Positions 4,339-32,713 of a stretch of DNA of 35,073 nucleotides are shown one piece after another. The DNA is taken from the NCBI GenBank assembly GCA_031292215.1, contig JARLHO010000114.1:1-35073 (forward strand), in the 5' to 3' direction. The notes below the pieces were generated by a model. The model saw nothing but the letters and a program-made list of their open reading frames with translations, was not told the DNA's origin and did no database searches. This stretch comes from Syntrophobacteraceae bacterium. GTDB lineage: Bacteria; Desulfobacterota; Syntrophobacteria; Syntrophobacterales; Syntrophobacteraceae. Both the position numbers and the translations under genes were made by a program. Position 1 is the first letter of the stretch. Each line of letters opens with the position of its first letter.

Positions 4339-6132
4339 ATGTACCATCTTTTGAATTTGCGCGCATGCGGGCGCCGTGTCGATATCGCAGCCGATCTGCC
4401 GGTCGCGCTGGTCGACAGTGAAGACGTCCTGGTGGCGGCGGTAAGCAAAAGCGGCCATCTCATCTATCACAACCGCTCCTTCATGAAGGCCTATCGGAAC
4501 CGCATCGCAGTGGCGGGGGGGATGAATCTGCGCGATGCGCTTCCCGAGTTGTGGCGTCGGATTCCGGACCTTCGTAGAGAGTCCCGAGACGATCTGGTAA
4601 AAGTTATCGACATCCATTCCGGGGTATCGGTAAATCCTATCGGCCATTTGCTGGTTTCGTTCAAGGAAGGCGCCAGGGACAATGGCGCCGTGGATTTTCG
4701 AGCGATGCTCGCCGAGCCCGAACACCCGCTGTTTTTGAATTCCTATATCGGCTTTTATGTCGCCGACCCTGAGGCGTATACGATACGGGTCAACCCGGCT
4801 TACGAAAAAATCGCCTTTCTCCCGGAAAGCGACCTTGTGGGCAGAAACTTGAGAGAACTCGAGGAACGGGGTTATTTTTCGCGTAGCGTCACCCTGCGCG
4901 TGCTCGAACAGCTTAAGCAGGGGAGCGCAAAAGACGTTACCCTTTTCCAGAAGATCATAACCGGGCAGGAAACCGTCGTTACGGGCAGGCCGATCTTTTC
5001 CGATGAAAAGAAATTGGAGTATGTACTGACCCTTGTGCAAAACATATTGCCGCTCGAAAAAATCGTTCGCAAGATCGAGGAATCCGAAGACAGGAGGCAG
5101 GTTTTCCCGCTTCGGGCAAAACCGGTTGGCGCCGGCCCGGCCGGGAATCGCGAGCGCATCGATGTCGTTTTTCCGGTGTTTGCCGACCTGCCCATTGTGG
5201 CGACAGACCCTTTGTCGCGCGCGGTGATGAGGCAGGCAGTCCACGCCGCCGGCTACAAATCGCCCGTTCTTCTCTGCGGGGAGACCGGGGTTGGTAAAGA
5301 CGTCATGGCGCAATACATTCACCGGGTCGGTTCCCGAAACGGAAATCTTGCCTTTGTCGCCATAAATACCTCTGCCATTCCTCAGGAACTACTCGAATCC
5401 GAGCTGTTCGGCTATGAAGAGGGCGCATTTTCCGGGGCCAAAAAGGGGGGGAAACGGGGGCTTTTTGAGGAGGCCCACGGCGGAACGCTCTTTCTAAATG
5501 AAATCAGCGAGATGCCCCTAAACCTCCAGGCAAAGCTTCTTTCCGCCCTCGATGAGGGCGCGGTGAGGCGCCTTGGCGGAAGTAAAACGAAAAAGGCCGA
5601 AGTCCGCATCATTTGCGCAACCAACAGGGACCTTGGCCGATGCGTGGCGCAGGGTTCCTTTCGAAGCGACCTGTATTACCGCATAAAAGTTCTGGCCATC
5701 GATATCCCGCCTTTACGGACCAGACCCCAAGACGTTCTCCCGCTGATCCGCCATTTCATGATGCAGATAACCCGCAACCACTCCATCATGCGATACTTAA
5801 GCGCGGATGTGCAGGACATCCTGCTCAGCTATCCCTGGCCGGGAAACATTAGAGAGCTTAGAAACGTCATCGAGAGGCTGGTGGTTTTTTCCACGACCGA
5901 ACAGATTTCGGTGGGAGATCTGCCATCGGAAATCCTGGGGAGCCCAGAGGTAAGCCGCGACGGCGAAGAGTTCGACCTGGAGGCCGGATTGTCGCTAAAA
6001 GATGCGGTAAGGCGCTTTGAGAGGCACATCATCGAAAAGACGTTAAAAAGATGCGGTCGGGTTTCCGCTGCCGCTTTAGCCCTGGCTATCGACCCTACAA
6101 CGCTCATCAGGAAACTCAAAAAGTCCGACTAA
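4339..6132 (+). CDS. Sigma-54-dependent transcriptional activator with PAS-like sensor region
   Basis: A 597-residue enhancer-binding protein. Two PAS-like segments (about residues 20-110 and 131-240) probably sense a small molecule. The AAA+ domain follows: Walker A GETGVGKD (314-321), sigma-54 contact loop GAFSGA (362-367), Walker B region GGTLFLNE (381-388), arginine-finger region FRSDLYYRIK (441-450) and PGNIRELRNV (501-510). A Fis-type helix-turn-helix closes the protein (about 572-594). Two departures from consensus are visible: GAFSGA instead of GAFTGA, and Asn instead of Asp in Walker B; both occur in some active members. There is no receiver domain, so control is by ligand rather than phosphorylation. 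The start has AAGGAG 8 bases upstream. A -24/-12 promoter sits 145 bases past the stop, so it probably regulates the lactonase gene and perhaps the abf operon. Confidence 0.92.
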   Translation: MYHLLNLRACGRRVDIAADLPVALVDSEDVLVAAVSKSGHLIYHNRSFMKAYRNRIAVAGGMNLRDALPELWRRIPDLRRESRDDLVKVIDIHSGVSVNPIGHLLVSFKEGARDNGAVDFRAMLAEPEHPLFLNSYIGFYVADPEAYTIRVNPAYEKIAFLPESDLVGRNLRELEERGYFSRSVTLRVLEQLKQGSAKDVTLFQKIITGQETVVTGRPIFSDEKKLEYVLTLVQNILPLEKIVRKIEESEDRRQVFPLRAKPVGAGPAGNRERIDVVFPVFADLPIVATDPLSRAVMRQAVHAAGYKSPVLLCGETGVGKDVMAQYIHRVGSRNGNLAFVAINTSAIPQELLESELFGYEEGAFSGAKKGGKRGLFEEAHGGTLFLNEISEMPLNLQAKLLSALDEGAVRRLGGSKTKKAEVRIICATNRDLGRCVAQGSFRSDLYYRIKVLAIDIPPLRTRPQDVLPLIRHFMMQITRNHSIMRYLSADVQDILLSYPWPGNIRELRNVIERLVVFSTTEQISVGDLPSEILGSPEVSRDGEEFDLEAGLSLKDAVRRFERHIIEKTLKRCGRVSAAALALAIDPTTLIRKLKKSD

Positions 6133-6154
6133 CTCCTGCGTTAATGCAGAGCGC

Positions 6155-6168
6155 CATGCAAAATTGCA
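6155..6168. promoter_or_regulatory. Possible operator with TGCAA-N2-TTGCA symmetry
   Basis: The 14-mer CATGCAAAATTGCA contains the inverted pair TGCAA/TTGCA separated by two bases. The identical 14-mer occurs inverted at 10995-11008 and with one mismatch at 10972-10985, so the motif brackets the 4-hydroxybutyrate genes. It could be a regulator site or part of a small repeat. Confidence 0.3.
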
Positions 6169-6276: not shown

Positions 6277-6292
6277 TGGCATCGGGTTTGCT
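6277..6292 (+). promoter_or_regulatory. Sigma-54 (-24/-12) promoter for the lactonase gene
   Basis: TGGCATCGGGTTTGCT fits the sigma-54 consensus TGGCAC-N5-TTGCW with one mismatch; GG (6278-6279) and GC (6290-6291) are separated by exactly 10 bases. It lies 122 bases before the lactonase start and 145 bases after the sigma-54 activator gene. Two direct copies of CAAAATGT (6254-6261 and 6264-6271) sit just upstream, unusually near for an enhancer site. Confidence 0.7.
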
Positions 6293-6413
6293 CTTACCCC
6301 TTATTGTTACTTTCACTGGAGATGAGGGCAGCGCACCAAAACGGCAAGTGTTCTTCGCAAATGCAGGGAACCATGGAATCTCCGCAACGTTTTGATGAGA
6401 AAAGGAGTGTAGG

Positions 6414-7193
6414 ATGAAGCTTTATCTATTTGAGGCCGGCGTTTTGAAGAGTCAAAAACACTACTTTACGCTTGGCCGTGACATCGGCAAGTCTTTCGAT
6501 GTGCCCGTTCCCTTCCTGCTGATCGATCATCCCAAAGGCAAGGTGCTTTTCGATACCGGCAATGCCTATGAAGTCATCGGCAACAAAGAAGAGCACTGGG
6601 GCGGGATCCTTGCCGCCTACGATCCGGTAATGACAGAGGATCAGTGGTGTGTGAACGCCATAAAGAAGGCAGGGGTTAGCCCGGAGGAGATAAAGTATGT
6701 TATCCTCTCCCACCTTCATTTGGATCATGCGGGTTGCGTAGGCCATTTCCCCAACGCAAAATATATCGTGCAGCGAGATGAGCTGCACTTCGCCTACGCC
6801 CCGGACTATTACATGAAAGCGGCCTATATCCGTAAAGATTTCGATAAAGACGTCCCGTGGGTGATCCTGGAAGGGTGGCGTGACGACAGGCTCGATCTTT
6901 TTCTCGACGGCTCGCTGATCATCTATTTCACTCCCGGCCACACGCCCGGCCACCAGTCGCTCTTGGTCAACCTGCAAAACAGTGGTCCCATGTTTTTCGC
7001 AGCCGATTCCTGTTACACGCTGGAAAATATCAACGAAGACGTTTTGCCCGGCCTCATGTGGAACGCCGGGGAGACTGTCCGATCCGTTCAGAGAATGAAA
7101 AACCTACGGGAGCTCTACGGGGCTCAAATCGTTACGGGCCACGACCCCGAGGCCTGGAAGCAGTTTAAACAAGCCCCGGGCTATTACGACTAA
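6414..7193 (+). CDS. Metallo-beta-lactamase-fold lactonase (N-acyl homoserine/gamma-butyrolactone lactonase-like)
   Basis: A 259-residue cytoplasmic hydrolase of the AhlD/AttM (BlcC) type, which open lactone rings with a di-zinc centre. The motif SHLHLDHAG gives His100, His102, Asp104 and His105; His176 (GHTPGH), Asp198 (AADSCY) and His243 (TGHD) complete the usual ligand set. Length matches the family. AGGAG precedes the ATG. The gene lies under a -24/-12 promoter, after a sigma-54 activator, and is convergent with abfT across a shared terminator. From the known gamma-butyrolactone activity of the AttM/BlcC branch and the neighbouring 4-hydroxybutyrate genes I infer that it may supply 4-hydroxybutyrate; an acyl homoserine lactone or another ester remains possible. 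Confidence 0.85.
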   Translation: MKLYLFEAGVLKSQKHYFTLGRDIGKSFDVPVPFLLIDHPKGKVLFDTGNAYEVIGNKEEHWGGILAAYDPVMTEDQWCVNAIKKAGVSPEEIKYVILSHLHLDHAGCVGHFPNAKYIVQRDELHFAYAPDYYMKAAYIRKDFDKDVPWVILEGWRDDRLDLFLDGSLIIYFTPGHTPGHQSLLVNLQNSGPMFFAADSCYTLENINEDVLPGLMWNAGETVRSVQRMKNLRELYGAQIVTGHDPEAWKQFKQAPGYYD

Positions 7194-7202
7194 AATAATT
7201 AA

Positions 7203-7240
7203 AAGGCCCCTTGCCTCCGAAACGGACGGCAAGGGGCCTT
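7203..7240 (-). terminator. Terminator between convergent lactonase and abfT genes
   Basis: Perfect 13-bp arms (7203-7215 and 7228-7240) form a GC-rich hairpin. On the minus strand it is followed by a T-rich run (TTTTAATTATTTTA), so it ends the abf operon. It may also stop the lactonase transcript from the other side, although the plus-strand T tract is weak. Confidence 0.8.
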
Positions 7241-7269
7241 GACCTTTGATCGCGTGCGCGTCTCGCGCA

Positions 7270-8589
7270 TCATGCCGTTTTGGGACGAGTCCCACTCGAT
7301 ACGTAGATATCCTTAAATTCTGCGGACAGTTGGTCCCTGAACTCGGGGGCGGCTATCGCGATGAGAGCTTCTGCTCGCTGGGCCACGGTTTTGCCCCTGA
7401 GGTGGGCCACCCCGTAGTCGGAAACCACGTAGTCCACATCGTTTCGCGATGTGGTGACCGCCTGTCCCCTCTCCAGAACAGACACTATGCGGGAAACCCT
7501 TCCCTTGGACGCCGTTGCGGGAAGAGCGATAATGCTGCGCCCGCCCTTGGATATCCGGGCGCCCCTTACGAAATCGACCTGTCCTCCGACGCCGCTGTAC
7601 TGCCTGGGGCCAAGCGTATCGGCGGCGACCTGGCCCAGAAGATCTACGGAGAGAGCCGAATTGAGGGAGACGAGATTGTCGTTTTTCGCGATATTTACCG
7701 GGTTGTTCGTATAATCGACCGGATACATCTCGATCATCGTGTTGCTGTCAAGCCATTTGTAGAACTCCGTTGTGCCCATCGCAAACGTGATGACGATCTT
7801 ATTGGGGTGGAAGCTCTTCCTGCGGCATGTGACGACCCCTCGTTCCACCAGGTGCATGACGCCGTCGGAGATCATCTCCGAATGGATGCCGAGGTCGTTT
7901 TTGTCTTCAAGGAAAGTCAAGGTCGCGTCCGGGATGGCGCCTATGCCCAACTGGAGACAGTCGCCGTCTTGTAAAAGGGAAGCGACGTTTTTGCCGATCG
8001 CCTTTTCAGTGTCTCCGATCCTTGGCGGCGACATCTCGATTAGAGGCTCATCGGAGTGAACGAAATAGTTGATGTCGGTTACATGCAGGCTGGAGTCACC
8101 GGCTATGCGGGGCATATTGGGGTTTACCTGGGCTATGACCGTGCGGGCGCTCGATGCCGCCTGTTTGGTGTAATCAACCGAGATGCCGAGGCAGACAAAA
8201 CCCTGCTTGTCGGGCGGCGTCACCTGGATGAGAGCAACGTCTACGGGAAGCGTATCGTTTCGGAAAAGCAGCGGGATTTCGCTAAAAAAACAGGGCGTAT
8301 AGTCCCCGCGCCCCTCGTTTATCGCCTGCCGGCTGGTAGCACCCACAAAAAGCGAATTGTGGCGGAAAGATTCGCAGTGCTCTGGCAGGCAATACTGCGC
8401 TTTGCCCATCGCAACCATGTGAACTATTTCAACGCCCCGCAGCTCTTTTGCCCGTTCGACCATAGCTGTCGTAAGCCCCCGGGGTTCGCCGCACGCATGG
8501 GCTACGACCACGCGGTCTTGAGGCTTAATGGCTTTTACCGCGGTTTGAGCGCTAACTGTGCAGCCCTCGTAATGATCTTTCCAGTTCAT
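7270..8589 (-). CDS. abfT: 4-hydroxybutyrate CoA-transferase
   Basis: A 439-residue class I CoA-transferase that moves CoA from acetyl-CoA (or a similar donor) to 4-hydroxybutyrate. The catalytic glutamate falls at residue 238 in HSEMISDG, the position reported for the Clostridium aminobutyricum enzyme. Other family marks are LGIGAIPDA (about 214-222) and the GGVGGQVDFVRGA glycine-rich segment (about 335-347). AAGGAG stands 7 bases before the ATG. It is the last gene of a tight operon with abfD and a small Cys-rich gene; its product 4-hydroxybutyryl-CoA is the substrate of AbfD. Close paralogues act on butyrate or acetate, so the substrate call rests on both sequence and linkage to abfD. Confidence 0.93.
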   Translation of the reverse strand: MNWKDHYEGCTVSAQTAVKAIKPQDRVVVAHACGEPRGLTTAMVERAKELRGVEIVHMVAMGKAQYCLPEHCESFRHNSLFVGATSRQAINEGRGDYTPCFFSEIPLLFRNDTLPVDVALIQVTPPDKQGFVCLGISVDYTKQAASSARTVIAQVNPNMPRIAGDSSLHVTDINYFVHSDEPLIEMSPPRIGDTEKAIGKNVASLLQDGDCLQLGIGAIPDATLTFLEDKNDLGIHSEMISDGVMHLVERGVVTCRRKSFHPNKIVITFAMGTTEFYKWLDSNTMIEMYPVDYTNNPVNIAKNDNLVSLNSALSVDLLGQVAADTLGPRQYSGVGGQVDFVRGARISKGGRSIIALPATASKGRVSRIVSVLERGQAVTTSRNDVDYVVSDYGVAHLRGKTVAQRAEALIAIAAPEFRDQLSAEFKDIYVSSGTRPKTA

Positions 8590-8600
8590 GAGGATCTCCT

Positions 8601-8924
8601 TTATATTTCATTCGAAGCGATTTTTAAAAGCTTCTCCACTATGGCCAAAGCGATCCGGGTCCCGGGGACCTCGACCTCGTCGACCGTCGTTCCGCACACC
8701 AGGACCCAATGGCGGGCAAAAGACAGGAGCTCGGGATGTTTGGCGCATCCCGAGCCGCACCCGCATATCAGAATGCCAAAGTCCCGGGGGACCGGGGCCG
8801 TCCCGTGAATCAGCGTAAATCCCTTCGGTAAAATGGTTTCGATTTCCCTGCCAATCCCTGCTCGATCGATTGCGGGATTGCAGCCGCCGCAGTATTTGAT
8901 GCCAACGGTTTTAAGAGCCTCCAT
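8601..8924 (-). CDS. Small cysteine-rich protein of the 4-hydroxybutyrate operon, 107 aa
   Basis: I do not recognise a characterised family. The protein has six cysteines, five of them in two clusters: KYCGGCNP near the N-terminus (about residues 10-17) and ICGCGSGC in the middle (about 58-65), with a sixth in VLVCGTTVDEVE. Such spacing suits an iron-sulfur cluster, another metal or a redox role. There is no signal peptide or membrane helix. It sits between abfD and abfT with gaps of 29 and 11 bases, so it is co-transcribed and probably serves the pathway, for example in maturing or reactivating the iron-sulfur/FAD dehydratase; that role is inference. The start is uncertain: ATG 8924 is used here, while an in-frame TTG at 8939 would add five residues; neither has a strong ribosome binding site. 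Confidence 0.75.
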   Translation of the reverse strand: MEALKTVGIKYCGGCNPAIDRAGIGREIETILPKGFTLIHGTAPVPRDFGILICGCGSGCAKHPELLSFARHWVLVCGTTVDEVEVPGTRIALAIVEKLLKIASNEI

Positions 8925-8953
8925 GGGATAGCGATCCAACCGCTGGAGAAACC

Positions 8954-10402
8954 CTAACTGATTCCTGCCAGCTCTTTAGCCAGTTGTTTTTTGTGATCCA
9001 GGTTTCCCTGCCGCGATATCATTATCCGTTGGGCCTGAGGGGAGCCGGCGCCGTGCATGGATTCTGTCCGATAGCCCACGGCCGCAGTTCCAAGCGTTAT
9101 GTTTTCAATCAGCCGCAATACTCTCATCCTGTGTTCGGTCGGAAATCCCCCCGCCCCGCGCAAATACTTGCGCACGACGTCGCCGATCTCCGGGTTTGCG
9201 AGATCTTTTTCCGAGGGCATCGTGACCATGATGCCGCCTGCGATGTCTTCGGCAAGCCGTGCAATTTCATAGGGAAATCGCGTGACGTTCTGCTTGCAGA
9301 CATTGGCCAGAAGAAGGTTTATGAGATAGGTCCCCGACTCGGTTTTTGTCCCCTCCGCCGAACAGGCGATCCCGCAGGCATAGAGGGTTTCGTTTAGATG
9401 AGTCATCTCGATTAACTTGTCCTTTACATGGGAGGCCTTGGCCGCTCCGTTTAGATCGGCGGCAAGGGCTGCCGCCCCTATCAGGACGTCTCCCACCCCC
9501 ACCTTGCACCCACCGTAGCTCTGGCGGTGATAGCCCGCGAAACGCTCAACGAGCAACCCGCTAAATTCGTGCTCTGCGCACATGAAGACGTTTTCCCGGG
9601 GAATAAAGACGTTTTCAAAGACCATCAAAGCTTCATGGCCCCCAAACTTCGCATTGCCCACATCCATATTTCCGCCTTCGAGCTTTCGCGTATCGCACGA
9701 CTGGCGTCCGTAGATGTAGTAGATCCCCTCGGCGTCGGCGGGGCAGGCAAAGGAAACCGCATAATCGGCGTCGTCTTTTCCCATCGCTATGGTCGGCATG
9801 ACCAGGACCCAGTGAGAATTGAGCGCTCCGGTCTGATGGGCCTTGGCCCCACGAACCACAATTCCATCTTTTCGCCTTTCGACCACACGCACGTACATGT
9901 CGGGGTCTTCCTGCCGGCACGGCGGCAATCCCCGGTCCCCTTTGGGGTCGGTCATAGCCCCGTCCACCGTAAGATCTTCTTCCTGCATCATGAGAAGGAA
10001 TTTTTCGAACCGTTTATGGTAGTCGGTCCCAAGCTTTCTATCCATTTCAAAGGTTACGGAGTCAACGGCGTTGATCGCGTCCATTCCCACACAGCGCTGA
10101 AAGCAGGCCCCGGTCTTTTGTCCCAGCAGCCGCTGCATCTTGACCTTTCTCACCAGGTCGTCGGTGCTTTGGTGCAGGTGACAGAAGCGGTTGACCGTTT
10201 TGCCGCTCAGGTGGGACTTTGCCGTCATAAGATCTTCGTGGAGGGGGTCTTCGGCAAGAGCGTAGGTCATCTTCACCGAATTCATCGAAGGCCGGATGAT
10301 CGGGTGATCCACCGGGTTATCGATGCGCTCGCCCAGAAGATATACTTTAAGATTTAGCTTTCGCAGGCTATCTTCATACTGTTGCGCGGTCTTAAGTGCC
10401 AT
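8954..10402 (-). CDS. abfD: 4-hydroxybutyryl-CoA dehydratase / vinylacetyl-CoA delta-isomerase
   Basis: A 482-residue flavoprotein of the 4-hydroxyphenylacetate 3-hydroxylase fold with a [4Fe-4S] cluster; it converts 4-hydroxybutyryl-CoA to crotonyl-CoA by a radical mechanism and is oxygen-sensitive. The four cluster ligands of the clostridial enzyme are present: Cys100 and Cys104 in GACFQRCVG, His292 and Cys299 in GYHRQSYGGC. Long blocks such as DGAMTDPKGDRG, GAKAHQTG, YGRQSCDTRK and ESMHGAGSPQAQR are as in the known enzyme. AAGGAG precedes the ATG. It heads the operon with the small Cys-rich gene and abfT. Crotonyl-CoA would enter beta-oxidation or butyrate metabolism, supporting a strictly anaerobic host. 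No -24/-12 promoter was found within about 160 bases upstream. Confidence 0.96.
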   Translation of the reverse strand: MALKTAQQYEDSLRKLNLKVYLLGERIDNPVDHPIIRPSMNSVKMTYALAEDPLHEDLMTAKSHLSGKTVNRFCHLHQSTDDLVRKVKMQRLLGQKTGACFQRCVGMDAINAVDSVTFEMDRKLGTDYHKRFEKFLLMMQEEDLTVDGAMTDPKGDRGLPPCRQEDPDMYVRVVERRKDGIVVRGAKAHQTGALNSHWVLVMPTIAMGKDDADYAVSFACPADAEGIYYIYGRQSCDTRKLEGGNMDVGNAKFGGHEALMVFENVFIPRENVFMCAEHEFSGLLVERFAGYHRQSYGGCKVGVGDVLIGAAALAADLNGAAKASHVKDKLIEMTHLNETLYACGIACSAEGTKTESGTYLINLLLANVCKQNVTRFPYEIARLAEDIAGGIMVTMPSEKDLANPEIGDVVRKYLRGAGGFPTEHRMRVLRLIENITLGTAAVGYRTESMHGAGSPQAQRIMISRQGNLDHKKQLAKELAGIS

Positions 10403-10607
10403 GTCGTTTCTCCTTGCTGCTTCTTAAGGATTGATTCTTTATAGAGACAAGAGATCCCGGATGGATGTGAATACCAGGTAGCGTTCAAGTTTAGCCAGTC
10501 CCTACCGGTAACCATTGTAGATGGGTGAAACGAAGTGCAACCCATCGCTTCGAGGAGTCTTTATTTAGCTCTCCTGAAGCCTTTTGTGAGTGGGCGCGCC
10601 CGTTATC

Positions 10608-10714
10608 CTTACAATTCCCCACACGTTCGCCCACTTACCCCTTAACGGAGACGCGCAAGAAGGGGCTTGGCTCAATCGCCCCCCTTTTTTTCAAAGGGGG
10701 GTTGGGAGGATTTC
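10608..10714 (+). repeat. Dispersed GC-rich repeat, copy 4 (one half-element with outer end)
   Basis: It begins CTTACAATTCCCCACACG, matching the outer end of the complete element at 12205, and continues through ACCCCTTAACGGAGAC, AGGGGCTTGGCTCAATCG and the C-run/G-run core to GGATTTCG. The mirrored right half of the complete element is missing, so this is a solo half. Confidence 0.75.
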
Positions 10715-10971
10715 GACTTCGTTCGTTGAGATGCCGATGCCGGGCCTTCTATCCATCTGTTACCATGATCATATTCCGGTCACGACACGTTTAGAGCAAA
10801 AGAGGTGCCAGGACGGGTAAACTCTGTGGCGAAAGAAAAGGAAAAGACCTTTCCCCGGGGGCTAAACTATAAATATTTGTGATAACAGGATAATTCTTGT
10901 GGGGCTTGGACCCGCCCGGAAGGCTTTACTCCGGCCTCCGTTTCCCGGGCGGACCCAAACGGAGGGCAGCG

Positions 10972-11008
10972 CATGCAGAATTGCACGAACCCGATGCAAT
11001 TTTGCATG
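10972..11008. promoter_or_regulatory. Inverted pair of the TGCAA-N2-TTGCA motif
   Basis: CATGCAGAATTGCA (10972-10985) and TGCAATTTTGCATG (10995-11008) are 14-base arms with one mismatch, separated by 9 bases. The motif recurs exactly at 6155-6168. It may be a regulator binding site or a hairpin-forming repeat; it lies about 60 bases downstream of the nfo stop and about 570 bases upstream of abfD. Confidence 0.3.
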
Positions 11009-11070
11009 GCTCGTTTACGGGCGGCGTATGATTTGTCGTGTGAGCCTCTCTTTATGACTCAAATGCAGCC

Positions 11071-11934
11071 TCAGTGGGGGGGCGGGGGCAAAAAAAGAGA
11101 GTTTAGGACCCCGAGGTTTTCCACGTCTTCTTTCATGTCCTTGCCTTTCGGGGTCTCGAGAACCATCGGGTGGCGCGCGAACCGGGGATCGTTTAGCAGA
11201 AGGCCAAATCCCCGCAGCCCTATTTTCCCCTTCCCGATGTGTTCATGCCTGTCGACCCGGGCGCCGAGTTCCCGTTTGCAATCGTTTATGTGGAAAAACT
11301 TTAGCCGCTCCAGGCCGATTGTTTCGTCGAGCTTTTTAAATGTCATCCCGTAGGTCGCAGCGTCTCGGATGTCGTATCCGGCGGCAAATCCGTGGCAGGT
11401 ATCGTAGCAGATTCCCATCGTGCTCCCAAACGCCGAGGTTTGCAAAATGAAGCCGATTTCCTCAAAGCTCGAACCAAGACTCGATCCCTGTCCCGCCGTG
11501 TTTTCGATAAGGACGCTTACCGATTCCACCCGGGAGGTCTCGATCGCCAAGTCGAGATTTTTTACGAGCCGCAGGAGTCCGGGCTCGCTTCCCTGGCCCC
11601 CGTGCGCCCCGGGGTGCATCACCAGGTAGGCAATTCCAAGGGCTTCGCACCTTTTGAGCTCTTCGGCAAAAGCTGCGACCGACTGCTGGAGAATCTGCTC
11701 ATCCTGCGCGGCAAGATTTATGAGATAACTGTCGTGGGCGGCAAGGGGAGGCGCCCCGCATTCCTTCCACCTGGATTTAAAAAGCGCGATCCGCTCGGCC
11801 CCGAGTTCTGCGGCGCGCCACTGCCTCTGGTTGGTCGTAAATAGCTGAAGGGCGCGGCCCTTAATTTTTTCCAGACGGTCGAATACGAGGTGGATGCCTC
11901 CGGCCGTTGATATATGCGCACCCAAATAAGGCAC
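11071..11934 (-). CDS. nfo: Deoxyribonuclease IV (endonuclease IV)
   Basis: A 287-residue AP endonuclease of the TIM-barrel family that cuts DNA 5' to abasic sites with three zinc ions, in base-excision repair. Family signatures are clear: VMHPGAHGG, CYDTCHGFAAGYD, FHINDCKRELGARVDRHEHIG and LETPKG near the C-terminus. The start is set at GTG 11934 (VPYLGAHIS, the conserved N-terminus) with GGAAAGGA upstream; an ATG at 11979 would add 15 residues not expected in the family. It lies in the same direction as the abf operon but 668 bases away, so it is probably transcribed alone. Confidence 0.95.
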   Translation of the reverse strand: MPYLGAHISTAGGIHLVFDRLEKIKGRALQLFTTNQRQWRAAELGAERIALFKSRWKECGAPPLAAHDSYLINLAAQDEQILQQSVAAFAEELKRCEALGIAYLVMHPGAHGGQGSEPGLLRLVKNLDLAIETSRVESVSVLIENTAGQGSSLGSSFEEIGFILQTSAFGSTMGICYDTCHGFAAGYDIRDAATYGMTFKKLDETIGLERLKFFHINDCKRELGARVDRHEHIGKGKIGLRGFGLLLNDPRFARHPMVLETPKGKDMKEDVENLGVLNSLFLPPPPH

Positions 11935-12204
11935 GAGAGATTTTCCTTTCCGATTCGAGGCCCCCTGGAGTCCCGGCAAATTTGTTTTCTTTCAGGAATG
12001 GTTGGAACTCAAAGAGTTTGCAGTCATCCGCGGATAATCGAAGACTATGCGCATGTTGCCTGTGAATTGTCTCATTTTTTGAGCCACGTTGTCTACGTCT
12101 CGGTCCTGTTTTCCGGATCAAAACCCTTACGTATCCGACTTTTTAATCCGTCCATGCTCGGGGCGGGCCTTCAATGTAATCCGGTCTCCCACGGCCGTCA
12201 AAAT

Positions 12205-12422
12205 CTTACAATTACCCACACATGCGCCCACCTACCCCTTAGCGGAGACTCCCAAGAAAGGGGCTGGGGCCGATCGCCCCCCTTTTTTGCAAAGGGGGGG
12301 TGGGGGGATTTACTCTCCAGCAGCTTGCAATGACGCGCATGGATCGGCTGGGCTCGCTCGCCCCCCCCTATTTGCAACTTTGCAAAAGGAGATAGGTGGG
12401 CGCATGTGTGGGTAATTGTAAG
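12205..12422. mobile_element. Complete MITE-like element with 30-bp perfect terminal inverted repeats
   Basis: The ends 12205-12234 and 12393-12422 are perfect inverted repeats of 30 bp, beginning CTTACAATTACCCACACATG. Each half carries one copy of the dispersed repeat core in opposite orientation (C-run, T-run, GCAAAG, G-run). The heptamer TCAAAAT lies directly left (12198-12204) and two bases right (12425-12431) of the element and may be a target duplication. There is no coding capacity. Solo or diverged halves occur at five other places in the window. Confidence 0.75.
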
Positions 12423-12527
12423 CATCAAAATAGAGGGTGATGTCCGTAAGGAGCGTGGGTTGATTTGCCTTTTCGCTGTTAAGATGCGCCAAATAGCGCT
12501 GCCAACAAGCCGACAAAATGCTATCCT

Positions 12528-12582
12528 GGGCTTTGGCGCGACCGCGCGGCCAAAGCCCCGCTTGACGGTGTGCACCGTCAAG
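12528..12582. repeat. Twin GC-rich hairpins (REP-like)
   Basis: The first hairpin (12528-12558) pairs GGGCTTTGGCGCG with CGCGGCCAAAGCCC, with one bulge. The second (12561-12582) has perfect 10-bp arms CTTGACGGTG/CACCGTCAAG with a 2-base spacer. Two hairpins side by side without a T-run look like a REP-type palindromic unit rather than a terminator. Confidence 0.5.
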
Positions 12583-12748
12583 CGTAAAATCCGTACTAGA
12601 GTGCGGGAAGACTGCCTGCGCGAGGCGGCTTCTTGCATGGAAACCCTCTGGCGCTTTAGGTCGGACGACAGGAACAGGGGAGGGCGCCATAAGAGAACCG
12701 GCAAAAAAACCTGCAACCTATGAAGACCTATACGACGTCCCCGAAAAT

Positions 12749-13270
12749 TTGATCGGGGAGATCGTTAACGGGGAGCTGACCGTACCCCCCAGGCCCACGA
12801 GGAAACATGGCTATGCGGCGACGGCATTGATTGAAGAGGTCGGACCGCCCTATCATCGCGGGCGTGGCGGACCAGGCGGGTGGAGCTTTATCGCCGAACC
12901 CGAGGTCATCTTCGGCGAAGACATCATGGCGCCCGACGTGGCCGGGTGGAAGGCGCAAAGATTCCTCTGGGAAGAAGATCGCAATCCTGTCTCGGTCGCA
13001 CCCGATTGGGTATGCGAAGTCCTCTCGCCAAAGACTGTCCGCAATGACAAAGTACGAAAAATGCCCGTTTATGCTCGCCACGGCGTTGGCCATATCTGGC
13101 TGATCGATCCCGCCGCCATGACAATGGACGCCTTCAGGCTTGAATCCGGCAGATGGCTCCTGTTGGCGAGCTTCTCCGAAAACGACAAGGCGCGTGTAGA
13201 GCCGTTCCAGGAGATTGAAATCAATCTTGCCTATCTGTGGGCCGAAAGCTCGCAGCCTCCCACACCGTAA
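12749..13270 (+). CDS. Uma2-family PD-(D/E)XK nuclease-like protein, start codon altered
   Basis: Uma2 (DUF820) proteins have a restriction-endonuclease-like fold and are often found with mobile DNA; their function is not established. Visible marks are IGEIVNGEL, APDVAGW (candidate metal-binding Asp), CEVLSPKT (candidate Glu) and GVGHIWLIDP. The family-typical N-terminus (REPAKKPATYEDLYDVPEN) is encoded in frame upstream from 12692, but the codon where ATG is expected (12689-12691, after GGAGGGCGCC) reads ATA. Coordinates here use the first standard start, TTG 12749, which would lose about 20 conserved residues. Either ATA is used, or the gene is decaying, or there is a sequencing error. The ParD/ParE pair lies downstream on the other strand. 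Confidence 0.8.
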   Translation: MIGEIVNGELTVPPRPTRKHGYAATALIEEVGPPYHRGRGGPGGWSFIAEPEVIFGEDIMAPDVAGWKAQRFLWEEDRNPVSVAPDWVCEVLSPKTVRNDKVRKMPVYARHGVGHIWLIDPAAMTMDAFRLESGRWLLLASFSENDKARVEPFQEIEINLAYLWAESSQPPTP

Positions 13271-13326
13271 GGGGCGGATCTGAAGGGCGCCTGCGGCAAA
13301 TTTAATTCTTAAGCCTTGTTTAGGCG

Positions 13327-13638
13327 TTAATCGTTGTCGGTGTCGTCGGAATGAAAAAGGGCGTCGAGGTCACGCGCGGCATGCAAGACGCGGACAACCT
13401 CAATGCCGTCTGGCTGGGGCAGATAAAAGACGATGTACCGGCCAATCGGAAAACTTCGCAACCCCTCCGCCAGTTCATCACGCAAGTGCCCTATAAGGGG
13501 ACGCGCGGCCAAGGTCTGAAGCTTCCGGTCGATCTTTCCAATGAAGGCGTCGGCGCGGGCTTCGATATCGTTCGCGACGTAATCCCATATCTCGGCAAGG
13601 TCGCTTTTAGCGCGTGGCCGTGTGACAATGACGGCCAT
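13327..13638 (-). CDS. parE: ParE/RelE-type toxin
   Basis: A 103-residue toxin of the type II ParE/RelE superfamily. The N-terminal AVIVTRPRAKSDLAEIWDYV, the middle IGHLRDEL and the C-terminal FPIGRYIVFYLPQPDGIEVVRVLHAARDLD fit the ParE branch, which poisons DNA gyrase; RelE-type ribosome-dependent mRNA cleavage is less likely but cannot be excluded by eye. Its ATG follows the antitoxin stop codon TAA with no gap, the usual coupling. The C-terminal tail is acidic (HSDDTDND). Confidence 0.9.
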   Translation of the reverse strand: MAVIVTRPRAKSDLAEIWDYVANDIEARADAFIGKIDRKLQTLAARPLIGHLRDELAEGLRSFPIGRYIVFYLPQPDGIEVVRVLHAARDLDALFHSDDTDND

Positions 13639-13914
13639 TTAAGCCTCTGGTTGGGTTGTTGCGCGGGCGGCTCTCTTTTTGCGGCCTTCAAGTTTTATTT
13701 CTTCGGGGTTCCATGGCGAGGGGGCGCCGCTGTTCAACCCGTCGTGAATGTCTTGTCTCAACTGTGCAAGCTTTGCCTCGCGAAGCCGATCTCGCTCTTC
13801 CATGAGGCGCAAGGCCTCGCGGACAACTTCGCTTGCCGATGTGTAAAGGCCGGACGCCACCTTCTGCTTTACCATATTTTCAAGCTGCTGGGTCAGATTG
13901 ACGTTCATAGTCAT
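13639..13914 (-). CDS. parD: ParD-type antitoxin (CC2985 family)
   Basis: A 91-residue antitoxin with an N-terminal ribbon-helix-helix domain (TMNVNLTQQLENMVKQKV, then SASEVVREALRLME, about residues 2-40) that binds DNA, and a charged C-terminal region (about 45-85) that would wrap the toxin. The first ATG (13914) is chosen because AGGAGG lies 5 bases upstream; a second in-frame ATG is at 13908. It precedes parE directly, and an inverted-repeat site lies upstream, consistent with autorepression. Confidence 0.9.
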   Translation of the reverse strand: MTMNVNLTQQLENMVKQKVASGLYTSASEVVREALRLMEERDRLREAKLAQLRQDIHDGLNSGAPSPWNPEEIKLEGRKKRAARATTQPEA

Positions 13915-13955
13915 CTCAACCTCCTGTTCTCTTCATTTTCGGAAAAATAACAAAG

Positions 13956-13982
13956 TTGTCAAAACCTGTCAATGATTGACAA
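13956..13982. promoter_or_regulatory. Operator-like inverted repeats upstream of parD
   Basis: TTGTCAA (13956-13962) and TTGACAA (13976-13982) are perfect inverted copies, with a third half-site TGTCAAT at 13967-13973. The site lies 41-68 bases upstream of the antitoxin start, where ribbon-helix-helix antitoxins usually bind to repress their own operon. Confidence 0.5.
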
Positions 13983-14235
13983 GTTTCCAATGCAAGAAGG
14001 AGTAGCGGAACCGCACGGGCTCCCCGATCCGGCTTGCCCAAGATTAATTGCTCGAAATGCGATAGTGCGATTGGTCAAGGCCGCGGTATGCGGAAGCTCC
14101 GGTTTAAAGTCCTTGGATGAGGGTAAAGCCGACCGCAAGATTGATCGGGATAAATGGAGCGTGCAAGCTGAGCGGGCCAATCTCCTTTTAACCGACCAGA
14201 GAGAAAAAAGGTCTTATGATGTAAATTGTTTACTT

Positions 14236-14417
14236 AGGGCTTGTCCGTAAATAAACCTTTTAGGGATTGCGCCGGATTTTGAGACTGATTTAGTCGCGAC
14301 GATTGAGCAAAACCGCAGGCGTAGCAGAGCTACGTCGAGGATTTTGCGATTGAGGAGCGGCCAAAGCAGGCCAAAAGCCGGATGCAGGCACAAAGGTTTT
14401 ATTTACGGACAAGCCCT
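14236..14417. mobile_element. MITE-like element with AGGGCTTGTCCG ends
   Basis: The ends are perfect 20-bp inverted repeats (14236-14255 and 14398-14417; AGGGCTTGTCCGTAAATAAA type), extending further with one indel. The interior contains a smaller hairpin (GTAGC/GCTAC) between inverted CAAAACC and GGATTTTG stretches. It has no open frame. A diverged copy of its right half is at 32920-32992. Confidence 0.7.
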
Positions 14418-14466
14418 TAATTTCACTCGATCCTGCAGATATACTTGTACCCACCGCCCACGTCAG

Positions 14467-30368: not shown

Positions 30369-31265
30369 TCACGATGCCGAACCGAATTCCTGTGCCCAGA
30401 AATAGCGGTAGCGGCCTGTCGCATCGAAAACCTCGCCCACTCCTATCTGCGTATAGCGTGGGTTCATGATGTTTGAGCGGTGCTCGGGGCTTGCGAACAT
30501 ACACTCAAACGTCTCCTCCGGCGTGGCGTAGCCGACCGCCAGATTTTCCCCGACAGTCGAGGTCGGATATCCGCTCTCGAAGACATTTTCATAGAACTGT
30601 TCGCCGGTGCTAAGCTCATGGGAGCAACAGTCGTGCCTGGCCATGTCCCTGGCATGACGCCGCGCGGCCTCGGTGAGCCGGCTGCTTAGTCCGAGCACCC
30701 GCAGCCCATCGGCTTCCCTTTCCAGGTTTACGAGCTCTATGAGTCGTATTTCCCCCGGCGTCGGTCCGCTCCCCGAACCTCCATCAGGACAAACCCCTTC
30801 CCTTGGCGCGCTGGAAGAGCTCTTCCCGGGACAGGCGAGCTCCCTTACCACATAGTCCCGTGAAGCCTCTCGGGCGAGGGCTGCGACCGGGCGAATCTGG
30901 ATAATGGACGAGCGGAGATAGACCGAAGCGTAGAGAAAGCCTTCTCGCACAACCAGGACGAGTTTTCCGCCTCCTGCCCCCTCGATTTTGCCCGACCACA
31001 CCAAAAGGCCTGAATCTTTCTGCTCTTTTTCCTGCCTTGCCGTGAGGCGGAGATCGTCGAACAAATGGAGGCTGATCGATTGTAAATCCGGCTGGGACAA
31101 AAGCTTTTCGGGGTCAAAGCGCGCAATACGTTCCCGAAGGATCTCGCTTTTGCCCGGCTGGAGGCCTCCGGCGGTCGCCCCCGTCAAGATGTCGGAGTAA
31201 GCCGACCCGCCGGAATACGAAACCGGCGGAATGGATGAGCAGGCGGTTAATGCCGGTAAAAACAT
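30369..31265 (-). CDS. CAP/SCP-domain lipoprotein, paralogue 1 (start codon altered)
   Basis: The C-terminal 130 residues form a CAP (SCP/PR1) domain: ELVNLEREADGL, ARRHARDMARHD, CSHELS, GYPTSTVGENLAVGYATPEE, SPEHRSNIMNPRYTQIGVGE and FWAQEFG. The N-terminal 150 residues are shared with the paralogue at 31602-32615 and resemble no family I know. The frame from ATG 31265 begins just before a lipobox (LTAC). In frame upstream, 13 more codons complete a normal signal peptide (KAKFCATTLLFC), but the codon aligned with the paralogue's ATG is ATC (31302-31304), after GAGGGG. So translation may use ATC, the shorter ATG start, or be impaired. Its leader is shared with the paralogue. CAP proteins are secreted; their bacterial role is unclear. 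Confidence 0.85.
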   Translation of the reverse strand: MFLPALTACSSIPPVSYSGGSAYSDILTGATAGGLQPGKSEILRERIARFDPEKLLSQPDLQSISLHLFDDLRLTARQEKEQKDSGLLVWSGKIEGAGGGKLVLVVREGFLYASVYLRSSIIQIRPVAALAREASRDYVVRELACPGKSSSSAPREGVCPDGGSGSGPTPGEIRLIELVNLEREADGLRVLGLSSRLTEAARRHARDMARHDCCSHELSTGEQFYENVFESGYPTSTVGENLAVGYATPEETFECMFASPEHRSNIMNPRYTQIGVGEVFDATGRYRYFWAQEFGSAS

Positions 31266-31601: not shown

Positions 31602-32615
31602 TCAGATGTGCGGACGGGCCGAACTAAGCTGCATGGTCTGCTCGCTTCCATCCGATGCCGCCCCGAATTCCTGCGCCCAGAAATAGCGGTAGCCGCTTGT
31701 CTCGTTTACGGCATCGCTAACACCTATCTGGCGAAAGTCGGAGTTCATGATGTTTGAGCGGTGCTCCGAGCTGCTAAGAAGGCATTCGAACGCCTCCTCG
31801 GGTGTGGCGAGGCCCGCGGCCAGATTCTCTCCAACCGTGGAAACCGGGTATCCGCTGGCGAAGACATTCCGATAGAACGGTTCGCCGTTGCTCATCTCAT
31901 GGGAGCAAATGTCGTGTGAGGCCATATCGACGGCGTGGCGCCGCGCGGCCTCTGTCAGTTGGCCATTGTACTCAAGAGCCGGAAGCCCGTCGGCTTTCCT
32001 TTCAAGATTTACCAGTTCGACCATTTTTCTCGCATCCGATGTCAATCCGGTCGCGGTGCAATCCGGGCAAACCGTGTTCTGCGCGACCCGGGTTCCTGCG
32101 GCCGACCCGGCTGCGGAACCGCTCCGCCAGGGATAGGCGAGCTCCCTGATCACATACCGCTGCGAACCGTCTGCGCCTTGTGCTGCAACGGGGCGAATCT
32201 GGATGATGGAGGTCGGAAGATATACCGAGGCATACAGAAAGCCTTCTCGCACGACCAGGATGAGTTTGCCGCCCTGGATCCCCTCGATTGCGCCCGTCCA
32301 CAGCAAAAATCCGTTCGAATCCCTTTGCTTTTCTTTGAGCCGCGCACTCAGGTGGAGGTCATGGAATAAATCCAGCTTGATCGAGGTAAGCTTTGACCCG
32401 AGCATAAGCTTTTCGGGGTCCAGCCGCGCAACTCTTTGCCGAACTACTTCCCGGCTGAGCGGCCGCAAGCCCGGCTGAGCGCCGGAAACCGAAACGTTTG
32501 TCACGGTTGCTCCGTAAGCCGGTCCCGCGTCGGCTACCAGCAAAACCTCTGAGTGGGCGGCCGAGGCCGACAAAAGCATGCAAAGAATCGCCGCTGACAA
32601 AAATCCCGATTTCAT
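31602..32615 (-). CDS. CAP/SCP-domain secreted protein, paralogue 2
   Basis: A 337-residue exported protein. A Sec signal peptide (KSGFLSAAILCMLLSASAAHS) is followed by about 160 residues shared with paralogue 1 (PEKLMLGSKLTSIKLDLFHDLHLSARL, then GGKLILVVREGFLYASVYLPTSIIQIRPVA) and a C-terminal CAP domain: RRHAVDMASHD, CSHEMS, GYPVSTVGENLAAGLATPEEAFE, SSEHRSNIMNSDFRQIGVSD and FWAQEFG. The His and Glu residues of the CAP cavity are present. Unlike paralogue 1 it has no lipobox, so it is periplasmic or extracellular. Start ATG 32615 is chosen for GGAGGG about 6 bases upstream; an in-frame ATG at 32651 would spoil the signal peptide. Tandem duplication is evident. Confidence 0.92.
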   Translation of the reverse strand: MKSGFLSAAILCMLLSASAAHSEVLLVADAGPAYGATVTNVSVSGAQPGLRPLSREVVRQRVARLDPEKLMLGSKLTSIKLDLFHDLHLSARLKEKQRDSNGFLLWTGAIEGIQGGKLILVVREGFLYASVYLPTSIIQIRPVAAQGADGSQRYVIRELAYPWRSGSAAGSAAGTRVAQNTVCPDCTATGLTSDARKMVELVNLERKADGLPALEYNGQLTEAARRHAVDMASHDICSHEMSNGEPFYRNVFASGYPVSTVGENLAAGLATPEEAFECLLSSSEHRSNIMNSDFRQIGVSDAVNETSGYRYFWAQEFGAASDGSEQTMQLSSARPHI

Positions 32616-32713
32616 GGTGGTCCCTCCGCGTCCGTGGGCTTGAGGGGCCATCCGGCTACCCGGAGGACCGCCTGCCGTCCCTGGTTTATGAGCCCCTTTC
32701 GGTGAAAGAGGCT
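32616..32713 (-). promoter_or_regulatory. Conserved 5' leader of CAP paralogue 2 (candidate RNA switch)
   Basis: On the minus strand the leader carries AAAGGGGC (32692-32699), ATAAACC, GCAGGCGGTCCTC, GGCCCCTC-AAGCC and ACGGACGCGGAGGGACC, matching the leader of paralogue 1 block by block. AGGGGC can pair with GCCCCT to form a closing stem; the alternative pairing of GGCCCCTC with GAGGGACC would cover the ribosome binding site. It lacks the paired GCAAACC/GCAAAGCC blocks of GEMM-I riboswitches. Confidence 0.5.

Follow-up and report, generated by a model that had tools for sequence, protein, structure and literature searches.

We report here on a stretch of 35,073 nucleotides from a Syntrophobacteraceae bacterium (contig JARLHO010000114.1), hereafter the window, which corresponds to contig C48 in a draft assembly of 177 contigs totaling 4.9 Mb (G000 in our labels) and carries a lactonase gene, a sigma-54-dependent activator gene, and genes of 4-hydroxybutyrate metabolism. 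The activator gene (4339–6132, plus strand) is followed on the same strand by the lactonase gene (6414–7193); facing them on the minus strand are abfD (8954–10402), a small open reading frame (ORF) at 8601–8924, and abfT (7270–8589). A preliminary description of this DNA had placed the lactonase beside a sigma-54 activator and convergent with abfD-abfT, and both statements are confirmed. Between the two operons lies a strong hairpin at about 7203–7240 (fold of 7190–7260, −34.8 kcal/mol, z −5.95), probably a terminator shared by both. The hairpin, the small ORF, the paired operators, a repeat lying within the abfD leader, and an abfD promoter beyond the stretch covered by that description are additions to it. 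The host is probably an anaerobe.

The lactonase (259 amino acids) has the Pfam domain Lactamase_B, and AttM is its best NCBIfam model (335.2 bits, residues 1–255). The HxHxDH motif is present, and H100, H102, D104, H105, H176, D198, Y201, and H243 are invariant in a five-row alignment; the roles of the metal ligands and the tyrosine are assigned by analogy with AiiA. The earlier assignment to the AttM/BlcC type is upheld by the fold, the best model, and the intact ligands, short of the equivalog cut-off, and we describe the protein as an AttM-like metallo-beta-lactamase-fold lactonase, a proposed gamma-butyrolactone lactonase.

AbfT, a 4-hydroxybutyrate CoA-transferase by homology, scores 492 bits to 3eh7 and 459 bits to 3gk7. 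Its closest solved relatives are 4-hydroxybutyrate CoA-transferases, and the glutamate of the GIHxEM motif, presumably catalytic, is kept (E238 in GIHSEM). As a butyryl-CoA:acetate CoA-transferase it reached 312.9 bits, below the TIGR03948 cut-off of 674.8 bits. AbfD, the 4-hydroxybutyryl-CoA dehydratase, scores 784 bits to the dehydratase/isomerase 1u8v, and its C100, C104, H292, and C299 align with C99, C103, H292, and C299 of that structure, which we take to be the [4Fe-4S] ligands. Both proteins are thus homologues, with ligands conserved, of the abf products of Clostridium aminobutyricum, presumably the source organism of 1u8v and 3gk7; the textbook abf pathway of that organism is not known to include a lactonase or a sigma-54 activator. 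The draft genome holds a second abfD-like gene, 40% identical (C163:57232–58674, locus L049); the 12 kb inspected there contain neither a lactonase nor abfT, and neither an activator match nor an operator.

The activator (597 amino acids) is a bacterial enhancer-binding protein with a weak N-terminal PAS domain, an AAA+ domain, and a Fis-type helix-turn-helix (Pfam Sigma54_activat 206.6 bits, HTH_8 34.1 bits, and PAS_4 borderline at 23.3 bits, cut-off 23.1). The canonical loop of such proteins is GAFTGA; here it reads GAFSGA, as it does in the activators of two relatives in the source genus, G001 and G005. Activators 80–82% identical occupy the same place in two further relatives, G007 and G010. 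G000 encodes a sigma-54 factor and 36 activator-type matches, this one included, and the second-ranking one shares 47% identity over residues 304–596 only, a span that leaves out the N-terminal sensor region. Scanning both strands of the window for −24/−12 sites with GG and GC fixed and up to two mismatches gave nine sites: one without mismatch, two with one, and six with two. The perfect site, TGGCACCTCTTTTGCT (10810–10795, minus strand), is upstream of abfD. One of the one-mismatch sites, TGGCATCGGGTTTGCT (6277–6292, plus strand), precedes the lactonase, where the preliminary description had put such a promoter; the other is at 30638–30623 on the minus strand. Outside the spacer, the lactonase and abfD promoters are conserved in G007 and G010.

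Upstream of each of these two promoters is a pair of TGCA-N4-TGCA palindromes, 20 bp apart before the lactonase and 21 bp apart before abfD. The lactonase pair consists of TGCGTTAATGCA (6137–6148, off the palindrome by one base, its center 135.5 bp from the −24 GG) and TGCAAAATTGCA (6157–6168), centered 115.5 bp ahead of that GG and unchanged across G000, G007, and G010. The abfD pair consists of the nearer TGCAGAATTGCA (10974–10985, 170.5 bp) and the farther TGCAATTTTGCA (10995–11006, 191.5 bp, with one base different in G007). In alignments of G000, G007, and G010, operators and −24/−12 sites are kept amid more variable intergenic DNA; in G007 the first lactonase operator is altered and one abf operator has a single base change. 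The single motif TGCANAATTGCA occurs five times in G000, three of them here, and at the same locus three of three are found in G010 and two of three in G007. The other two in G000 were treated as chance because the fetched stretches have no −24/−12 site with at most one mismatch; one of them, C107:44427, sits some 150 bp from the end of its contig, and the other is at C152:28554. The tandem operator is more restricted: genome-wide it is found only at the two window promoters in G000, only at the same two in G010, only at abf in G007, and only upstream of the lactonase operon in G001, and the reversed pattern gave zero hits in all six genomes searched.

Please note that the operator motif was first chosen by eye in G000, and that one earlier enrichment count combines segments that defined the motif with independent ones. 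A test restricted to ten promoter segments from other loci, outside the motif definition, found 17 near-operators against an expectation of 1.0 based on the remainder of those loci, and none of 2000 Markov shuffles reached 17; nine segments were bounded by the activator gene, the start of one (L060) was chosen by hand, the sequences had been viewed beforehand, and related loci were counted as independent. An AAA+ activator, −24/−12 promoters, upstream operators, and a genomic sigma-54 factor are all present as sequence features, and they support sigma-54 control of both window operons. Because activator and operators are adjacent and co-conserved, we infer that the window activator acts through the paired TGCA operators.

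The lactonase alignment was then used to scan public genomes, from which 80 loci (L numbers) were kept; the 16 with a lactonase at least 65% identical are called close, and neighbor genes were counted within 10 kb of it. The nearest named locus, L051, is from a Syntrophobacteraceae metagenome-assembled genome and has a lactonase 93% identical to ours. L051, L052, and L054 correspond to the contigs from G007, G010, and G001, respectively, and L066 comes from the cultured species Desulfobotulus alkaliphilus. Several close loci (L053, L055, L057, L058, L063, and L064 among them) are cut by contig ends, and a missing neighbor there means little because the contig stops. Both abfD and abfT are present at 8/16 close loci (L051, L052, L055, L060, L062, L064, L065, and L066), an iron alcohol dehydrogenase resembling hydroxyacid-oxoacid transhydrogenase (HOT) at three (L053, L054, and L056; the HOT query came from L054), and a weaker iron alcohol dehydrogenase (30–33%) at four (L057, L058, L061, and L063). 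Eleven of the 16 have an activator of the window type, and eight (L051, L052, L054, L055, L060, L062, L065, and L066) have, immediately before the operon, a −24/−12 site with no more than one mismatch. The loci joining lactonase and abf genes span Desulfobacterota and Bacillota in varying gene orders. A lack of co-occurrence between the lactonase and abf genes in related genomes had been set in advance as a result that would overturn the proposal; co-occurrence was found at half of the close loci and at two Desulfosporosinus loci, and this check does not refute it.

Within the source genus, a lactonase match at 1e-30 is found in six of ten relatives and lies near abfD in four (G007, G010, G003, and G005); the window layout recurs in G007 and G010, and in G010 genes for a 3-hydroxybutyryl-CoA dehydrogenase, an acyl-CoA dehydrogenase-like protein, and a thiolase are directly upstream of the activator. 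G005 has a lactonase of 54% identity near abfD with an acyl-CoA synthetase gene between, and a second one of 86% that lies close to an activator at the edge of a contig. Of the other two relatives with a match, G001 has the HOT-type set, and G004 has a lactonase of 33%, an iron alcohol dehydrogenase and, judged by eye, an aldehyde ferredoxin oxidoreductase. In G003, a lactonase of 37–38% (L037, 6113–7078), which has a twin-arginine-type signal by eye, adjoins abfT, the small ORF, and abfD, along with a transporter-like gene; in that organism the lactone may be opened outside the cytoplasm.

Among the ten loci of 37–57% identity (L067–L076), none has abfD and three (L068, L070, and L072) have an iron alcohol dehydrogenase; L069 and L071, judged by eye, look like sugar-type ABC transporter contexts. 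In the remaining 54 loci (37% or less), abfD and abfT occur together in the two from Desulfosporosinus (L099, from the cultured D. fructosivorans, and L102; lactonases of 28–30%), and an iron alcohol dehydrogenase occurs in five (L089, L091, L092, L109, and L114). On a quick, long-branched tree of 81 of 84 possible lactonases (the others without a hit or with a match below 190 residues), the abf label needs at least eight changes, of which starred branches force six, and its clustering exceeds that of all 500 shuffles. Chance adjacency of lactonase and abf genes was rejected on the eight close loci, the tandem operator sites, and this clustering.

We also looked from the side of abfD, scanning 395 genomes drawn from the phylum for abfD matches at 1e-130 and lactonase matches at 1e-25; up to six and up to four candidates per genome were scored in two steps, and the counts are lower bounds. 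At least 102 genomes have abfD and at least 22 have any lactonase match. Among the matches listed, G339 has a lactonase of 78% and the others are at 44% or less; in both G000 and G339 the lactonase is next to abfD, and in G129 the abfD and lactonase matches share a contig, separated by about 16 kb. Of 15 abfD neighborhoods fetched, one (G339) has the lactonase and four (G339, L161, L162, and L163) have abfT. The close lactonase is so rare among the abfD genomes and these neighborhoods that we regard it as an optional front end, and its membership in every abf cluster was rejected.

Taken together, these features suggest a dedicated two-operon sigma-54 regulon for anaerobic use of gamma-butyrolactone and 4-hydroxybutyrate, to which we assign a probability of roughly 0.78. 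In this model, the lactonase would open gamma-butyrolactone to 4-hydroxybutyrate, AbfT would transfer CoA to it from an acyl-CoA donor, and AbfD would dehydrate and isomerize 4-hydroxybutyryl-CoA to crotonyl-CoA, which would enter beta-oxidation. The activator would sense a pathway compound, bind the paired operators 115–192 bp upstream, and drive sigma-54 polymerase at both promoters; 4-hydroxybutyrate would be the simplest inducer because similar activators adjoin abf clusters without lactonase (L043 and L161). The main argument for gamma-butyrolactone as the lactonase substrate is that 4-hydroxybutyrate is the compound that all the neighboring enzymes could share, which points to lactone catabolism rather than quenching of quorum signals.

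Several observations weigh against this regulon as just described. The NCBIfam equivalog model for AttM (NF045700, cut-off 390 bits) is missed by 55 bits, so that the lactonase is AttM-like only, and its closest solved structures, 9khq (252 bits) and 9kho (248 bits), are named N-acylhomoserine lactonases. At one close locus, L059, with a lactonase of 73%, none of the genes queried turned up in the roughly 10 kb visible to either side. The other 8/16 close loci have no −24/−12 site of the kind counted, including L056, which has a paired operator; L062, one of the ten test segments, has the promoter and no operator under the rule used; and the genome-wide search found no tandem operator in G005 and G003. 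The iron alcohol dehydrogenase label is unclustered on the lactonase tree (156 of 500 shuffles as low). A close lactonase is found in only two of the 102 abfD genomes (G000 and G339) among the matches listed, and abfT was not found in 11 of the 15 fetched neighborhoods of related abfD, indicating that AbfD relatives need not always serve 4-hydroxybutyrate.

If the lactonase were a quorum-quenching acyl homoserine lactonase that stands beside abf genes by chance, its best NCBIfam and PDB names, which are those of acyl homoserine lactonases, would be explained; however, potential 4-hydroxybutyrate users lie within 10 kb at 15/16 close loci, the operator pair is common to both window operons and found nowhere else in the genome, and by contrast seven of the ten lactonases of 37–57% have no abf gene or iron alcohol dehydrogenase within reach. 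This neighborhood evidence led us to reject quorum quenching as the principal role, and we consider the chance placement highly improbable. A different gamma-lactone, e.g., gamma-valerolactone, could be the true substrate, with the Abf pair taking the matching 4-hydroxy acid, since the Abf substrates are assigned from homology and lactonases with this fold are promiscuous. Against it, the solved enzymes nearest to AbfD and AbfT bear names from 4-hydroxybutyrate or gamma-aminobutyrate metabolism, and the partners elsewhere are iron alcohol dehydrogenases, whose simpler substrate would be a primary alcohol, 4-hydroxybutyrate for example; we give this alternative a very small chance as well.

The more serious competitor, though still an unlikely one, is that the lactonase serves repair and not entry, i.e., it only salvages gamma-butyrolactone that has cyclized during growth on 4-hydroxybutyrate or its precursors. 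Both 4-hydroxybutyrate and 4-hydroxybutyryl-CoA cyclize spontaneously to gamma-butyrolactone, one operator type is common to the lactonase and abf operons, and of the four among the 15 further abfD loci that have abfT, three have a −24/−12 site before abfD and no lactonase, which fits a 4-hydroxybutyrate-signaled regulon to which the lactonase was added. Against repair, the lactonases of G001 (85–86%) and of L058 and L061 (69–75%) stand with dehydrogenases and without abf genes in the stretches seen, where 4-hydroxybutyryl-CoA is not expected, and a close lactonase is missing from 100 of the 102 abfD genomes among the matches listed. The entry pathway is the reading that we prefer.

The nearest characterized system appears to be the Agrobacterium blcABC (attKLM) operon with its repressor BlcR, in which BlcC/AttM opens gamma-butyrolactone (PMC3907764). 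The two are alike in that a lactonase of the AttM/BlcC family feeds 4-hydroxybutyrate to catabolic enzymes and that regulation responds to pathway compounds; they differ in that the window route is proposed to run through CoA transfer and dehydration rather than oxidation through succinic semialdehyde, and in having a sigma-54 activator instead of a repressor. The 4-hydroxybutyrate and semialdehyde dehydrogenases of the blcABC type were not found beside the window lactonase, where abfD and abfT stand instead. A 2019 study predicted a Clostridium XanR sigma-54 regulon, abfD-nifU-hyp-ach-golB, labeled as butyrate/butanol synthesis (PMC6615313). The strings "hydroxybutyr" and "lactonase" are absent from the main text of that paper. 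Like the window, that regulon has an abfD operon predicted to be under sigma-54 and its own activator; it also holds NifU and hypothetical genes, ach, and golB, which one might guess to encode a metallo-hydrolase. Our lactonase, by contrast, stands as a convergent operon of its own, and the genome is of the Desulfobacterota type. In a 2025 study (PMC12316311), the cluster of orthologous groups that contains 4-hydroxybutyryl-CoA dehydratase is listed among those under sigma-54 regulation, chiefly in Clostridia. In the collection of papers searched, none joins 4-hydroxybutyryl-CoA dehydratase, lactonase, and butyrolactone; a term search within PMC4641369 gave no hits, and among the titles and abstract beginnings listed nothing is closer than the papers cited. 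The preliminary description had called a lactone-to-crotonyl-CoA route under sigma-54 control unusual; the sigma-54 control is supported for both operons, and "unusual" needs toning down in view of the earlier Clostridium prediction (PMC6615313) of an abfD operon under sigma-54. What appears new is a dedicated, modular regulon built from known enzymes, and a lactonase clade reused before several 4-hydroxybutyrate routes.

A broader reading, which we hold only tentatively and at less than even odds, combines two proposals: that the lactonase is a portable "lactone gate" placed across anaerobes before at least four 4-hydroxybutyrate routes, and that the small protein is an AbfD-specific iron–sulfur (Fe-S) or redox helper. 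The gate would be one AttM-like lactonase clade, frequently accompanied by a sigma-54 activator of related type together with TGCA operators. It would precede AbfT/AbfD; acyl-CoA synthetase/AbfD; a transhydrogenase-like dehydrogenase with a 2-hydroxyacid dehydrogenase and electron transfer flavoprotein (ETF); and an iron alcohol dehydrogenase with aldehyde ferredoxin oxidoreductase. The third route corresponds to L054 (G001), where 6503–14436 holds the activator, the HOT-like iron alcohol dehydrogenase, the lactonase, a GlcD-type dehydrogenase, etfB, and etfA, a set that we take to be a possible bacterial 4-hydroxybutyrate/2-oxoglutarate transhydrogenase cycle. The HOT name is a tentative one based in part on the neighbors; the alcohol dehydrogenase reached no NCBIfam cut-off, HOT is absent from the families listed and the PDB matches, and the GlcD-type neighbor is also below its NCBIfam cut-off. 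The fourth corresponds to L058 and L061, which also have aldehyde ferredoxin oxidoreductase genes.

The small protein (107 amino acids) has CGGCNP and GCxxxC motifs and no Pfam family. Homologues with these motifs were found at seven of ten named abf loci scanned and, by tblastn, in seven of 15 further abfD neighborhoods; C12, C15, C56, and C60 are invariant in eight sequences, and the homologue in L062 has an Rdx match below threshold. A NifU-type gene adjoins abfD in L065 (without the small ORF) and L102 (with it). We propose that this four-cysteine protein could be an Fe-S or redox helper of AbfD. Its AlphaFold2 model has a mean pLDDT of 82.8; Foldseek gave no match at E 0.001 or better, some chains of Hdr/hydrogenase complexes at E 0.10–0.34 being a weak lead only, VIA Z scores were at most 7.9, common to many unrelated alpha/beta folds, and no convincing profile match was obtained against PDB sequences (best E 0.31). 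This unnamed family of four-cysteine proteins travels with abfD in many genomes.

If the proposed regulon is correct, gamma-butyrolactone and 4-hydroxybutyrate would be a regulated carbon source for anaerobes, many known only from metagenomes; "catabolic butyrolactone hydrolases" would be a more fitting name for a group of enzymes now called quorum-quenching lactonases; the activator–operator pair could be used as a 4-hydroxybutyrate sensor; and a function would be offered for the abfD regulon filed under butyrate synthesis.

A transporter-like membrane protein recurs beside abf and lactonase genes, its copies (L037 10798–12210, L043 3980–5362, L057 about 1790, L161 8400–9761, and L163 2518–3900) being 52–56% identical to that of L037, with no Pfam family above cut-off; it is a candidate 4-hydroxybutyrate importer. 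Inside the abfD leader of the window, a local repeat copy (10605–10713), in a stretch missing from G007 and G010, has families in common with a second copy at 12205–12425. The two are 69–87% alike in the families reported, the second has 59-nt inverted arms, and together they look like a small mobile or REP-type (repetitive extragenic palindromic) element. Beyond the repeat region lie a Uma2 putative nuclease gene (12749–13270, plus strand) and a ParE-type toxin gene (13327–13638, minus strand), and farther on the window encodes two adjacent CAP-domain proteins (30369–31265 and 31602–32651, minus strand).

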